34,027 nt of DNA from Thioalkalivibrio sp. (GTDB taxonomy: Bacteria; Pseudomonadota; Gammaproteobacteria; Ectothiorhodospirales; Ectothiorhodospiraceae). A program made the position numbers and the translations under genes. Positions 3,824 through 24,080 of this stretch are shown one piece after another. Under the pieces are notes generated by a model that worked only from the letters and a program-made list of their open reading frames with translations, ran no database searches and was not told the origin of the DNA. The stretch's first letter is position 1; the number at the start of each line of letters is the position of its first letter. The stretch spans positions 1 to 34,027 of the forward strand of contig JAABTX010000030.1 of NCBI GenBank assembly GCA_011389655.1. The letters run 5' to 3'.

Positions 3824-4110
3824 GCGTCCCCACCGGGCTGTGGTGGGTGCGCTTCGCTTCACCCACCCTACGGGTTACCTGCTTCCGCCCACGCGTAGGG
3901 TGGGCCAGGCGCAGCGTCCCCACCGGGCTGTGGTGGGTGCGCTTCGCTTCACCCACCCTACGGGTTACCTGCTTCCGCCCTACGCGTAGGGTGGGCCAAG
4001 CGCAGCGGGCCCACCGGGCTGTGGTGGGTGCGCTTCGCTTCACCCACCCTACGGCCTACCTGCTTCCGCCCACGCGTAGGGTGGGCCAAGCGCAGCGGGC
4101 CCACCGGGGA
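3824..4110 (+). repeat. Three ~90-bp tandem BIME-like palindromic units
   Basis: Three near-identical units start around 3831, 3921 and 4012 (periods 90 and 91 bp), with a partial fourth start at 4102. Each unit holds two hairpin halves. One has arms GTGGGTG/CACCCAC; the other has arms GTGGGCC/GGCCCAC (perfect in later units, degraded in the first). The halves are joined by an outer inverted repeat CCCACCCTACG / CGTAGGGTGGG. This is the architecture of paired inverted REP elements. The array fills the gap between convergent panD and ppc, where it may block read-through. Proteins read through it on either strand are repeat artefacts. Confidence 0.93.
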
Positions 4111-13345: not shown

Positions 13346-13858
13346 TCACGTCCGATCGGGAGGCTCGATCAGCACCGGGTCCCCGACGCGAATCAGGCCC
13401 CCGGTCAGCACGCGCAGGCAGACCCCGCTGTTCCTTCCCAGCGCCCGGGCCATGTTTTCCCCGGTGACCTGGTTGATGTAGCCGCACGGTGGCCGGGGCT
13501 TCAGGTACTCGAAGCCCGCCCCGCCGATCCGGAAGCGCCGTCCCTCCAGATCCCGGGTACGAATGCCGGAAACGACGAGATTGCGCCGGTGCTGCCCGCG
13601 GTCCACCGCCACGGGCAGGCGCCGCTGCGCGAGCCGGAGGTCGTGCTCCGAGATCAGGGTGACCTCGCAGCTCTCGACCGGATGCCAGTGCCCGGTGGCC
13701 AGGGAATAGCGGTCACCGGCGAGCCCCTTGCCAGCGATGGCCTGCACCGATGCCGGTGCCTCCATCGGCTCCCCGGCTGCGGGGCTGATGAAGATCGCGG
13801 CCAGACGGGGCACGGGCGCGGCCCTGCCGAGCCTCCGCAGCAGCGCGGTCCAGGCCAT
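13346..13858 (-). CDS. MOSC domain protein
   Basis: A 170-residue single-domain MOSC protein. The domain is related to the C-terminal sulfurase domain of Moco sulfurase and to YiiM-like molybdenum enzymes, with a conserved Cys thought to act in sulfur or metal-sulfur handling. Visible family pieces are IFISPAAGEPM, GKGLAGDRY, VTLISEHDL, RRNLVVSGI and the KPRPPCGYINQV stretch containing the conserved Cys, ending in GVCLRVLTGGLIRVGDPV. Its ATG (13858-13856) overlaps the stop of the upstream kinase gene (TGATG), so the two are translationally coupled. The substrate is unknown. Molybdenum cofactor genes lie ~10 kb away on the same strand, which may be coincidence. Confidence 0.9.
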   Translation of the reverse strand: MAWTALLRRLGRAAPVPRLAAIFISPAAGEPMEAPASVQAIAGKGLAGDRYSLATGHWHPVESCEVTLISEHDLRLAQRRLPVAVDRGQHRRNLVVSGIRTRDLEGRRFRIGGAGFEYLKPRPPCGYINQVTGENMARALGRNSGVCLRVLTGGLIRVGDPVLIEPPDRT

Positions 13859-14796
13859 CAGTACCGGTAGCCGAAGGTCTCCTCGAAACGCGCTGCGAAG
13901 CCCTCCGCGTCGAAGCGGTGGTTCTGGGTGCCGGGGCTCGCGATCTTGATCGACCCGAGCAGCGAGGCGATGCGGCCGGTGGTCTCCCAGTCCATGCCGC
14001 GTTCGAGCCCGAACAGCAGGCCGGCCCGGAAGGCATCGCCACAGCCGGTGGGATCGACGACCGCTTCCGGCGTCACCACCGGAATATCGATGCGGCGACC
14101 GCCCGTGTAGATCTGCGATCCCTCGCCGCCGCGCGTCACGATCATCGCATCGACCCGTTCCGCCATCTGCTCGAGGCTCAGGCCGGTGCGTTCGGCGGTC
14201 AGCTGGGCCTCGTAGTCATTGAACGCGGCATAGGTCGCCTGCTCGAGGAACCGGTTGAGTTCCTCGGCGTTGAACAGCGGCAGGCCCTGGCCGACGTCGA
14301 AGATGAACGGAATACCCGCCCGCTCGAACTGCTCGGCGTGCTCGATCATGCCTTCGCGGCCGTCCGGTGCGACGATACCGATGCGGACGCCAAGGCTCGC
14401 CGCCTCGTCCACGCGGTTGTAGTGCGAGAAATTCATCGCCCCCGGATGGAAGGCCGTGATCTGGTTGTCGTCCTGATCGGTGGTGATGAAGGCCTGGCCG
14501 GTAAAGCTGCCCTCCACCGTGCGCACGTGGCGGGAATCGATGGCCTGCTGTTCCAGCCACTCGGCATAGATGCCGAAGTCGGAGCCCACGGTGGCCATCG
14601 GCACCGGGTCGCCGCCAAGAAGCCTCAGGTTGTAGGCCATGTTGCCCGCGCAGCCCCCGAACTCCCGGCGCATCTCGGGAACCAGGAACGAGACGTTCAG
14701 GATGTGCACCTTGTCGGGCAGGATGTGATGCCGGAAGCGGTCGGGAAAGACCATGATGGTGTCGAAGGCGAGAGAACCGCAGATCAGGGCGGGCAT
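13858..14796 (-). CDS. PfkB family carbohydrate/adenosine kinase
   Basis: A 312-residue ribokinase-fold kinase. The first PfkB signature lies in EFGGCAGNMAYNLRLLGG, and the second, with catalytic Asp254, is in VVDPTGCGDAFRAGLLFG. The family phosphorylates sugars or nucleosides with ATP; similar gammaproteobacterial proteins are annotated as adenosine kinase or plain carbohydrate kinase, and the substrate cannot be read here. Two in-frame starts exist. ATG 14802 directly abuts AAAGGA, while ATG 14796 has AGGA at a 6-nt spacing, so 14796 is preferred. The stop overlaps the MOSC start. A good promoter match lies upstream. Confidence 0.88.
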   Translation of the reverse strand: MPALICGSLAFDTIMVFPDRFRHHILPDKVHILNVSFLVPEMRREFGGCAGNMAYNLRLLGGDPVPMATVGSDFGIYAEWLEQQAIDSRHVRTVEGSFTGQAFITTDQDDNQITAFHPGAMNFSHYNRVDEAASLGVRIGIVAPDGREGMIEHAEQFERAGIPFIFDVGQGLPLFNAEELNRFLEQATYAAFNDYEAQLTAERTGLSLEQMAERVDAMIVTRGGEGSQIYTGGRRIDIPVVTPEAVVDPTGCGDAFRAGLLFGLERGMDWETTGRIASLLGSIKIASPGTQNHRFDAEGFAARFEETFGYRY

Positions 14797-14867
14797 AGGC
14801 ATTCCTTTGATTGCAAGTGAAAAAGAGCGGCGCTGCGGCGGTATCAGCCGGGCGCCAGGGCCTGCAT

Positions 14868-15000: not shown

Positions 15001-15435
15001 ATGTCCATGATCGAAATCGGCGCCGGCCTGCGGATTCCCGAGGAGGCGCTGGAATTCCGCTACAAGCGCGCGACCGGGCCGGGCGGCCAGCATGTGAACC
15101 GCACCGAAAGCGCGGTGGAACTGCGTTTGCGCCTGGAGACCCCGGGGCTGCTGCCGCCGCCGATGCTGGAGCGGTTGCGCCGGATTGCGCGCAGGCGTAT
15201 CTCTCGGGAGGGGGTGCTGATCATTCACGCCCAGCGCTTCCGCAGCCAGGAGCGCAACCGCGAGGATGCCCTCGCGCGACTCGCGGACCTGCTGCAGGAG
15301 GCGGCGCAGCCGCGGGCGCCGCGGATCGCCACGCGGCCGACCCGCGCGTCGCGCGAGCGCCGTCTTGCCCGGAAGAAGCGCCTCGGCGAGCGCAAGCGCG
15401 GGCGCGGAAGGCTGCGACCGACCGAGGACCACTGA
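15001..15435 (+). CDS. arfB: Alternative ribosome-rescue factor B (peptidyl-tRNA hydrolase ArfB)
   Basis: ArfB hydrolyses peptidyl-tRNA on ribosomes stalled at the end of non-stop mRNAs. The 144-residue product has the release-factor-like catalytic GGQ in RATGPGGQHVNRTESAVELR (GGQ at residues 28-30) and a long basic C-terminal tail (RPTRASRERRLARKKRLGERKRGRGR), which in ArfB occupies the empty mRNA channel. Length matches the family, and there is no codon-recognition domain as in true release factors. The ATG at 15001 has GGAG six bases upstream; a GTG at 14986 is a less likely start. The RNase gene begins 16 bp after the stop. Confidence 0.95.
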   Translation: MSMIEIGAGLRIPEEALEFRYKRATGPGGQHVNRTESAVELRLRLETPGLLPPPMLERLRRIARRRISREGVLIIHAQRFRSQERNREDALARLADLLQEAAQPRAPRIATRPTRASRERRLARKKRLGERKRGRGRLRPTEDH

Positions 15436-15451
15436 CCCGTCCGGAGATGCC

Positions 15452-15892
15452 ATGAAGAAGCCGTCACTGATCATCCTGCTGCTGGTGCTCGCGCTGGCGG
15501 TACTGACCCTGCAGTTCCTCGGGCCGGATTCCGGGCTCGGGCCCGACGCGCCGCCCCCGGCCGAGGAGATCGATGCAAACGGCGCAGCGCTGGTGGTGCC
15601 CGATGTGGCGGTGCGCGACCTGGACGGCCGTGTCGCCTGGCGGGGCGATGTGGACCTGGCACCGGAACTCCAGCGCATCGCCGCGGGAGAGCGCGATCCG
15701 CACCGCAACGACGGCGGGGTGTTCCAAAACCGCGAGGGGCTGCTGCCCGACCGGCCCCGCGGCCACTACCGGGAGTACGTGGTGCGCACTCCGGGCATTT
15801 CCCACGCGGGGCCACAGCGTCTCGTGATCGGCGCCGACGGGGAAGTCTACTACACCCATGACCACTACCAGAGCTTCCGGAGGATACGCTGA
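15452..15892 (+). CDS. Exported or membrane-anchored microbial ribonuclease (barnase/RNase Sa family)
   Basis: A 146-residue guanyl-preferring ribonuclease of the N1/T1/barnase family. After a basic-hydrophobic N-terminus (MKKPSLIILLLVLALAVLTLQFL), which may be a signal peptide or anchor because no clear A-x-A site is visible, comes a Pro/Asp linker and the catalytic domain. It aligns by eye with RNase Sa and barnase: VFQNREGLLP, then the general base Glu108 in HYREYVV, Arg123 in PQRLVIG and the general acid His138 in THDHYQSF. The position of the second active-site Arg (barnase Arg83, RNase Sa Arg65) is Ala119. It starts 16 bp after arfB and overlaps the barstar start by TGATG. Confidence 0.9.
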   Translation: MKKPSLIILLLVLALAVLTLQFLGPDSGLGPDAPPPAEEIDANGAALVVPDVAVRDLDGRVAWRGDVDLAPELQRIAAGERDPHRNDGGVFQNREGLLPDRPRGHYREYVVRTPGISHAGPQRLVIGADGEVYYTHDHYQSFRRIR

Positions 15893-16302
15893 TGACCCGG
15901 GACCGCGTTCGCTCGGGGATTTGGGAGTGGCTGGAGCTGTCCGATCCGGTGCTGCGGCTGGACGCGGATACGGTGATCGACGAGGTGCTGGTGGTGCTGA
16001 CGGAATGCGGGCTGGATGCCCGCACCGTGGACGCGCGGACCCTTTCCGGCAAGGCGGCGCTGCTCGAGGCGCTGCACCGCACCCTGGAGCTCGACGAGTG
16101 GTTCGGGTTCAACTGGGACGCGCTGGAAGAGGCGCTGCACGGGCCGGAGGAGGCGGCGGCCCCGGAGCGCGTGCTGGTCTGCGTGGGCTTTGGCGACTTC
16201 GAATCGCGCGCGCCGGAGGACGCCGAGGTCTTCCTCGACATCGTGCGGAACGTGGCCTCGACGCCGGGCAGCGGGCTGCGCGGCTGCGTACTGACCCCCT
16301 GA
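15892..16302 (+). CDS. Barstar family ribonuclease inhibitor
   Basis: A 136-residue cytosolic barstar-like protein expected to bind and block the RNase encoded just upstream. The core shows the barstar pattern: a helix ending LHRTLELDEWFGFNWDALEEALHG, which corresponds to the barnase-binding helix. Asp76 matches barstar Asp35, and Glu79-Glu80 replace Trp38-Asp39, keeping the acidic surface. A VLVCVGF strand follows. The N-terminus is longer than in the 89-residue Bacillus barstar. Start ATG 15892 overlaps the RNase stop, with GGAGG at 15879-15883 giving its own ribosome site, which would favour inhibitor synthesis along with the enzyme. Confidence 0.9.
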   Translation: MTRDRVRSGIWEWLELSDPVLRLDADTVIDEVLVVLTECGLDARTVDARTLSGKAALLEALHRTLELDEWFGFNWDALEEALHGPEEAAAPERVLVCVGFGDFESRAPEDAEVFLDIVRNVASTPGSGLRGCVLTP

Positions 16303-16356
16303 GGGCTACCGCCCCTTGCTCCCCTCTCCCGCTTGCGGACAAGGCGGCCAGGGACC

Positions 16357-16380
16357 GGGACAGATCTGCAAATCTGTCCC
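16357..16380 (+). repeat. Small palindromic repeat (GGGACAGAT / ATCTGTCCC)
   Basis: A perfect 9-bp inverted repeat with arms 16357-16365 and 16372-16380 and a 6-nt loop. The 'GGGACAGAT...ATCTGTCCC' type is a familiar dispersed intergenic repeat in several gammaproteobacteria (recall). It lies 54 bp after the barstar stop and may also act as a 3' stabiliser or terminator. Confidence 0.7.
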
Positions 16381-16424: not shown

Positions 16425-16448
16425 CCCTCCCCCGCGAGCGGGGGAGGG
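16425..16448 (+). repeat. Perfect 11-bp GC hairpin (CCCTCCCCCGC / GCGGGGGAGGG)
   Basis: Arms at 16425-16435 and 16438-16448 with a GA loop. Together with the nearby CCCCTCTCCCGCTTGCGG (16320-16337) it looks like a copy of the common 'CTCTCCCGC-TTGCGGGAGAG' class of dispersed repeats. The stem is followed by GGCTTTCCTTG, not a T-run. It lies in the otherwise gene-free 16303-16478 stretch. Confidence 0.65.
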
Positions 16449-16562: not shown

Positions 16563-16588
16563 GCCGCATGGCCCGCTAGACTGTTGTG

Positions 16589-17335
16589 ATGGCAGCCGAT
16601 GCAGCGACACGGGCAGAGGGTCCGGGAGGCCGCGACGTGGTCTTCGAGACCCGGGGTCTGACCAAGACCTACCTGATGGGGGAGGTGCAGATCCACGCGC
16701 TGCAGGGCGTGGATCTCGATCTCTATGCCGGAGAACTGGTGGTGATGCTCGGCGCCTCCGGCTCGGGCAAGTCCACACTGCTCAACATCATGGGCGGGCT
16801 GGACACCGCGACCTCCGGCAGCGTGCGTTACCGCGACCAGGACCTGACCCATGCCTCCGAGAGGGATCTGACGCTGTTTCGGCGCGATCATGTCGGCTTC
16901 GTGTTTCAGTTCTACAATCTGATCGCAAGCCTGACCGCGAGGGAGAACGTGGCGATCGTCACCGAGATCAGTCGTGACCCGATGCCCCCCGAGGAGGCGC
17001 TCGCGCGGGTCGGGTTGAAGAAGCGGCTGGATCACTTTCCGGCGCAGCTTTCGGGTGGTGAGCAGCAGCGGGTCGCGATCGCTCGCGCCATCGCGAAGCA
17101 GCCGGCGGTGCTGCTGTGCGACGAGCCGACCGGCGCGCTGGATTCGAAGACCGGCATCCAGGTGCTCGAGGCCCTGGAACATATCAACGACGAGATGCGC
17201 ACCACGGTCGCGATCATTACCCACAACGAGGTGATCGGCGAGATGGCGGACCGGGTGGTTCGACTGCGCGACGGGCGCGTGGAGGGGATCCACGTGAATG
17301 ACCGGCGCCGCGAACCCCGCGAGCTCCGCTGGTAG
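16589..17335 (+). CDS. ABC transporter ATP-binding protein (LolD/MacB type)
   Basis: The 248-residue ATPase of an exporter. Walker A is GASGSGKST near residue 55, the Q-loop is in [18 protein letters not shown], the signature is [14 protein letters not shown], Walker B is [13 protein letters not shown] and the switch His is in ITHN. The sequence style ([28 protein letters not shown]) is typical of LolD/MacB/FtsE-like ATPases that pair with FtsX-type permeases. ATG 16589 is used; GTG 16586 one codon earlier is equally possible, and neither has a strong ribosome site. Its last 38 bases overlap the permease gene, implying co-translation and assembly of the pair. Confidence 0.94.
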
Positions 17336-21185: not shown

Positions 21186-21192
21186 TGTGGTC

Positions 21193-21774
21193 GTGGGAGC
21201 GGCTTCCAGCCGCGATGCGGCGTCCTGCTGTGAGATGCCCAGGGCCATCGCGGCCAGAGGCCGCTCCCACAGGAGGCCGCCCGGGGTTCGTGGGAGCGGC
21301 TTCCAGCCGCGATGTGGCGTTGTGTCGAATGCCCAGGGCCATCGCGGCCAGAGGCCGCTCCCACAGGAGGCCGCTCCCACAGGAGGCCGCTCGGGGTTCG
21401 TGGGAGCGGCTTCCAGCCGCGATGCGGCGTTGTGTCGAATGCCCAGGGCCATCGCGGCCAGAGGCCGCTCCCACAGGAGGCCGCTCGGGGTTCGTGGGAG
21501 CGGCTTCCAGCCGCGATGCGGCGTTGTGTCGAATGCCCAGGGCCGTCGCGGCCAGAGGCCGCTCCCACAGGAGGTCGCTCGGGGTTCGTGGGAGCGGCTT
21601 CCAGCCGCGATGCGGCGTTGTGTCGAATGCCCAGGGCCATCGCGGCCAGAGGCCGCTCCCACAGGAGGCCGCTCGGGGTTCGTGGGAGCGGCTTCCAGCC
21701 GCGATGCGGCGTTGTGTCGAATGCCCAGGGCCATCGCGGCCAGAGGCCGCTCCCACAGGAGGCCGCTCCTACAG
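21193..21774 (+). repeat. Six-copy tandem array of a 75-bp palindromic element (94-bp period)
   Basis: Units start at 21193, 21290, 21400, 21494, 21588 and 21682. The last four are exactly 94 bp apart; the 110-bp step comes from a small internal duplication near 21365-21380. Each unit has a 75-bp core with outer arms GTGGGAGCGGC and GCCGCTCCCAC and inner inverted parts around CAGCCGCGATG / CATCGCGGCC, then a 19-bp linker. Copies are almost identical (e.g. the fourth core has CCGTCG for CCATCG). The core is a BIME-like pair of inverted REPs. It fills the 773-bp gap between convergent adaptor and amylosucrase genes. ORFs read through it on both strands are artefacts. Confidence 0.95.
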
Positions 21775-21843
21775 GCACACCCGGCGCCGGGTGGCGGGCC
21801 CTAGCGGCGATCGGGCGCCCGAAGACCAGCGCCCGGCTCCCGG

Positions 21844-23805: not shown

Positions 23806-23953
23806 GGGGCTCCGGGGGGATGCAGGGCGACCCGGAACGCGACGTCACCGCCCCGGGCGCAGGAGTGTGGCGGACATGATCGGCAACCCGGCGCCCCAGC
23901 GCAAACGGTCCAGGCGATCCCGCGCCGGGGATGGCCGCCCAGGGGCGCCTCCT

Positions 23954-24080
23954 GTGGGAGCGGTCTCCTGTGGGAGCGGCCTCTGGCCGCGATGGCCCTG
24001 GGCACCTCACAGAACGCCGCGTCGCGGCTGGAAGCCGCTCCCACGACCCTTGCAGGAGAGAAGCCAGAAGCCGCTCCCAC
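23954..24080 (-). repeat. Inverted copy of the 75-bp palindromic element plus partial copies
   Basis: The 75-bp stretch 23970-24044 is the reverse complement of the array unit at 21193-21774, with a few differences (for example GGGCACCTCACAG in the centre). A truncated arm precedes it at 23954-23967, and another partial arm ends at 24080 (AGAAGCCGCTCCCAC). The element lies upstream of the amylosucrase start. The remaining gap 23806-23953 shows no gene. Confidence 0.9.

Follow-up and report, generated by a model that had tools for sequence, protein, structure and literature searches.

The window, the whole 34,027-nucleotide stretch of Thioalkalivibrio sp. DNA analysed here, contains three adjacent, co-oriented genes, which we refer to as the trio. 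The first, arfB (15001..15435, + strand), encodes a 144-aa alternative ribosome rescue aminoacyl-tRNA hydrolase which, like ArfB/YaeJ, has a stand-alone GGQ domain (GGQ at residues 28-30) and a basic C-terminal tail. The protein matched the equivalog model NF006718 in a profile search (155 bits vs a cut-off of 100) and aligned to solved PDB ArfB/YaeJ across 138 residues (E about 1e-27). The second gene (15452..15892, + strand) encodes a 146-aa guanyl-type RNase that matched PF00545 (60.6 bits vs a cut-off of 24) and RNase Sa3 (phmmer, E 7.5e-17); its AF2 model (pLDDT 78) also matched RNase Sa3 (Foldseek, E 1.1e-6, probability 1.00). The third (15892..16302, + strand) encodes a 136-aa barstar-family inhibitor, as judged by its match to PF01337 (58.4 bits vs a cut-off of 23.4) and by the match of its AF2 model to the barstar fold (Foldseek, E 8.6e-5), and no signal peptide was seen in its sequence. 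In the genome assembly (3.46 Mb, 367 contigs), PF00545 and PF01337 each matched once, at the trio.

A 16-bp spacer (15436..15451, + strand), with a GGAG upstream of the RNase ATG, separates arfB from the RNase gene. The RNase and barstar genes share one base, the RNase stop and barstar start codons overlapping as TGATG (15890-15894, + strand), and a GGAGG Shine-Dalgarno sequence (15879..15883, + strand) lies within the RNase 3' end, eight bases 5' of the barstar ATG. This order, spacing and overlap had been described in the initial annotation and were borne out in every respect, including the gene positions. A divergent pfkB-family kinase gene (13858..14802, - strand) forms the left border of the site, and an ABC ATPase gene (16586..17335, + strand), followed by FtsX-like and HlyD-like genes, forms the right border.

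A search for a sigma-70-type promoter around the trio found none. A terminator-like stem-loop is present 3' of barstar (16425..16448, + strand), although the signal is weak, with one found vs 0.7 expected in shuffles, and a palindrome, GGGACAGATCTGCAAATCTGTCCC, lies between barstar and this stem at about 16356-16380. An inverted repeat between pfkB and arfB was considered as an operator of the trio and rejected; a related block occupies the same place in sister genomes that lack the trio, and the repeat therefore belongs to pfkB. Elsewhere in the window, a near-identical 90-bp repeat (96% matches) occurs three times in tandem at 3829-4108, and a tandem array of a 94-bp unit (about 6 copies), the unit being built from an imperfect palindrome (GTGGGAGCGGCTTCCAGCCGCGAT...ATCGCGGCCAGAGGCCGCTCCCAC), occurs at 21191-21776 and also at 23947-23983.

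Active site and predicted membrane anchor of the RNase

The enzyme had been annotated as a secreted-type RNase. Export is indeed predicted, but the N-terminus does not fit a freely secreted protein: residues about 4-21 (15452..15523, + strand; MKKPSLIILLLVLALAVLTLQFLG) form a hydrophobic helix (helix 4-21 in the AF2 model), and neither AxA nor a lipobox was seen on reading the N-terminus of the window RNase. Because this helix has no evident signal-peptidase site, the RNase looks membrane-anchored, with the helix as a predicted uncleaved anchor. The trio RNases form one group (100/100 in the tree) with those of Wenzhouxiangella and two other family genera, and the N-termini read across this subfamily are either hydrophobic anchors with no evident cleavage site or, in one genus, carry a lipobox (LTGC). 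The group also has in common an N-terminal segment, LVVxxVxVRDLDGRVAWRGDVDLAP, modelled by AF2 as a beta hairpin ahead of the catalytic fold, and a strict HAGPQR motif in place of the HRGARR or similar of other members.

The general base E108, the general acid H138 and the Arg87-type R123 are conserved and correspond to barnase E73, H102 and R87, and the guanine-binding Glu (barnase E60) is retained as E95. In the alignment, the equivalents of barnase E73, R87, H102, R59 and E60 are all kept throughout the subfamily. The second active-site arginine, R83 in barnase, is missing: the position is occupied by A119 in the window RNase and by Ala in 21/21 subfamily sequences, whereas the comparison sequences have Arg, or His in one case. 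We take this position to be equivalent to R65 of RNase Sa. Arg83 sits in the barnase active site and touches barstar, where R83, R87 and H102 contact D39 and R59 contacts D35 (PMC4207830, PMC8837141). On the inhibitory helix of the window's barstar, D76, the D35 equivalent, is invariant, N74 stands at the N33 position, and the D39 equivalent, E80, is Glu or Asp within the clade and differs from known barstar in being Glu in most clade members.

The subfamily-wide loss of an arginine with these two roles could mean that RNase activity is lost or weakened and that the protein now serves in the membrane for RNA binding or signalling, under barstar control. The retention of the other active-site residues and of the inhibitor speaks against this, and related enzymes such as RNase T1 work with one such arginine. 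The dN/dS of the RNase (0.08-0.19) is lower than that of either ArfB (0.22-0.33) or barstar (0.25-0.31) in the same comparisons, which indicates strong purifying selection; the gene is therefore not decaying, and we consider an inactive RNase very unlikely.

Barnase domains with barstar as immunity protein are used in many lineages as contact-dependent or polymorphic toxins (PMC3482391), and the RNase might likewise be delivered to competitors, with barstar protecting the producer. At 146 aa, with an anchor and linker only and no delivery domain, it is not the large delivered protein of such systems. No secretion-effector genes were seen among the identified neighbours, the gene is present in a single copy per genome, and its sequence is conserved rather than polymorphic, all of which make a weapon highly improbable. 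No RNase relative was found in phages, and plasmids yielded only distant ones (<60% identity). In one soda-lake MAG (L014, 110-1312), the RNase and barstar genes are separated by a second C-terminal piece of RNase that is apparently frame-broken and may be a partial duplication.

The RNase and barstar resemble Bacillus amyloliquefaciens barnase-barstar and actinomycete RNase Sa (PF00545/PF01337) in their folds and domains, in the order of RNase gene then inhibitor gene and, as predicted here, in an exported enzyme with a cytoplasmic inhibitor. They differ from barnase and RNase Sa in the predicted anchor, the extra N-terminal segment and the Ala at the Arg83 position.

Distribution of the trio and of the RNase-barstar pair

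Close RNase relatives with readable flanks came from Thioalkalivibrio MAGs, including T. paradoxus. An intact trio, with arfB directly upstream of the RNase gene and sited between pfkB and the ABC transporter, was present in 12/12 members of a single Thioalkalivibrio clade of soda-lake sulfur bacteria. All 12 belong to the same genus as the window, and two are assembled as one contig each. In the 15/15 other genomes of the genus examined, which belong to a sister clade, pfkB is next to the ABC gene with no trio gene, and at least one of these has an insertion-sequence-like gene at the trio-less site. A conserved 52-60-aa ORF (MNPRVLIPILIILLLLLSLWSMSLDG...) also lies there between pfkB and the ABC gene (L101, L106, L215-L226). 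Its product combines a single membrane helix with a Pro/Ala-rich tail and weakly resembles the RNase anchor, of which it may be a remnant; region-preserving shuffles were suggestive, and a profile comparison gave just 40% probability over the membrane helix.

The left pfkB and the right ABC/FtsX/HlyD genes are likewise conserved in the trio clade, and synteny alone is therefore no proof of selection for the arfB link; within the clade, this linkage is no more than background synteny. Several clade members have about 1.5 kb between barstar and the ABC gene, and in the one such interval read the genes are oppositely oriented, which leaves the trio as a three-gene run. Nothing is inserted between arfB and the RNase gene in any of the 12 genomes, while the barstar-ABC interval has gained genes in several. 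The arfB-RNase gap measures 16, 21-23, 90, about 110 or about 195 bp, and the nine trio loci that could be resolved all have the one-base overlap (TAATG in one) and GGAGG. Translational coupling, as predicted from this spacing, belongs to the RNase-barstar pair and not to arfB with the pair.

RNase and barstar occur in the identical 18 of 47 family genomes, and in the remaining 6 of these 18 the pair is located away from arfB. Two of these six, the nearly complete genomes G003 (99%) and G046 (98%), have no ArfB that passes the family cut-off. PF00545 was detected in 15/369 sampled class genomes and 35/398 sampled phylum genomes, both counts including the window genome. Outside the clade, we read about 50 separate RNase loci, drawn from the family, genome-contig, class and phylum sets; barstar adjoins the RNase at about 49 of them. 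The flanks of these loci contain no arfB, four of them (L013, L014, L016 and L018) holding <600 bp upstream.

With barstar beside nearly all of these RNases, the pair is ordinary in proteobacteria, and together with the overlap and GGAGG kept in the trio clade this strongly supports the RNase-barstar pairing proposed initially. The same annotation had called a gammaproteobacterial pair beside arfB less usual; the pair itself is not unusual, and arfB is the odd element. The survey of arfB neighbourhoods that it suggested found the linkage conserved in one Thioalkalivibrio clade and nowhere else examined, with no recurrence in independent lineages. Simple barnase-barstar pairs with the same two-gene, toxin-then-immunity order have been described across bacteria and are widespread (PMC3482391); the window locus differs from them in having arfB directly upstream, in a single clade only.

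Origin of the linked ArfB

The ArfBs linked to the RNase are 69-88% identical to that of the window, vs 44-52% for other family ArfBs, which are no closer to it than are those of unrelated gammaproteobacteria. In the tree, the linked ArfBs form a clade separate from the family ArfBs (100/100, in an analysis whose bootstrap had not fully settled), and each is the sole ArfB above the cut-off in its genome, such that the surviving arfB of the trio genomes is the copy adjoining the RNase. Phylogenetically, the linked ArfB is a xenolog from another ArfB clade than the family's own. In the sister clade, the resident arfB adjoins prfC, which encodes RF3 (e.g., L095 6065-8765 and L202); the prfC place is without arfB in the trio genomes, and the arfB-prfC adjacency was also not seen in G008 and G046. 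Given the separate ArfB clade and the absence of the resident prfC-side arfB from the trio genomes, one ArfB lineage replaced another.

The barstars of the trio group in their tree with those of Wenzhouxiangella and not with other family genera (97/91), and the RNase tree gives no clear placement. The barstar tree alone hints at a shared origin with Wenzhouxiangella. As a donor of the whole trio, Wenzhouxiangella was rejected: its ArfBs are 42-48% identical and are encoded on other contigs, with no match in one genome.

The window's ArfB differs from ArfB/YaeJ elsewhere not only in its clade but also in its neighbour, an RNase and not the pseudouridine synthase that a release-factor survey reported as the only extensive conserved ArfB neighbour (PMC6514570). 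A further parallel is the RtcB2-PrfH operon (PMC9223846, PMC6514570), in which a peptidyl-tRNA-hydrolysing relative of release factors is likewise linked to an RNA-cleavage-related system. There, however, the partner of PrfH is an RNA repair ligase that acts against ribotoxins, and the link recurs in many bacteria, whereas the partner here is a nuclease with its inhibitor, linked in a single clade only, and ArfB lacks a codon-recognition domain. Our literature search found no paper treating both ArfB and barnase.

Role of arfB beside the RNase-barstar pair

The initial annotation suggested that the trio could be an RNase with two safety layers. As a dedicated operon, this would mean that RNase that leaks or is not exported cleaves mRNA, barstar inhibits the enzyme, ArfB rescues the resulting non-stop ribosomes, and the genes are co-expressed for that purpose. 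Non-stop ribosomes are known to arise from mRNA cleavage (PMC8012679), and the intact trio in every clade genome, the displacement of the family-type ArfB by the linked one, and the single run of co-oriented genes, flanked by divergent pfkB and in some relatives by an oppositely oriented gene, are all in keeping with such an arrangement. An exported RNase should, however, seldom meet mRNA, the arfB-RNase gap reaches about 195 bp, the flanking synteny is equally conserved, and arfB is absent from about 50 other RNase-barstar loci. In addition, since G003 and G046 carry the pair without ArfB, ArfB is not needed to tolerate it, a point against a dedicated second layer of safety. Of the two proposed layers, the RNase-barstar pairing stands and the ArfB layer fares poorly, and we regard the dedicated two-layer operon as unlikely.

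The explanation that we favour, and consider probable, is that an exported, membrane-tethered guanyl RNase and a cytoplasmic barstar constitute a working unit located downstream of a foreign arfB that performs general rescue. As suggested by its sequence, the N-terminal helix of the RNase would insert in the inner membrane and place the guanyl-type endonuclease domain on the periplasmic side. Barstar, translated in the cytoplasm from the overlapping start codon, would plug the active site of RNase not yet exported, as in Bacillus. In the ancestor of the trio clade, a foreign arfB would have come to sit upstream of the pair, the resident type would have been lost, and the linked arfB may now be co-transcribed as the first gene in the same run. 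Its product most likely carries out general rescue of non-stop ribosomes with no specific RNase partner. The missing catalytic arginine counts against this explanation, and both the activity and the topology of the RNase are predictions. The presence of arfB next to the pair would then be a local feature, probably without a dedicated safety function.

A local functional benefit of the arfB linkage is possible, and the intactness of the trio in 12/12 genomes and the survival of the RNase-linked arfB also fit a functional link. A more specific version, in which ArfB was captured into the RNase-inhibitor operon, and replaced the resident ArfB, so that rescue and a membrane-tethered RNase, from a new subfamily using a single active-site arginine, are now expressed together, appears to us quite unlikely. 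If true, this capture would represent the first nuclease-inhibitor-ArfB unit, and a functional link would connect ArfB with RNA cleavage that is self-inflicted; the papers found describe no such role for it.

Read conservatively, these data document how one ArfB lineage clearly displaced another and describe a distinct branch of barnase/RNase Sa enzymes in haloalkaliphilic gammaproteobacteria that lacks Arg83 and is, by prediction, membrane-anchored. This subfamily is a natural test of the need for the second arginine in an intensively studied active site, and also of how barstar recognition adapts without the Arg83 contact.
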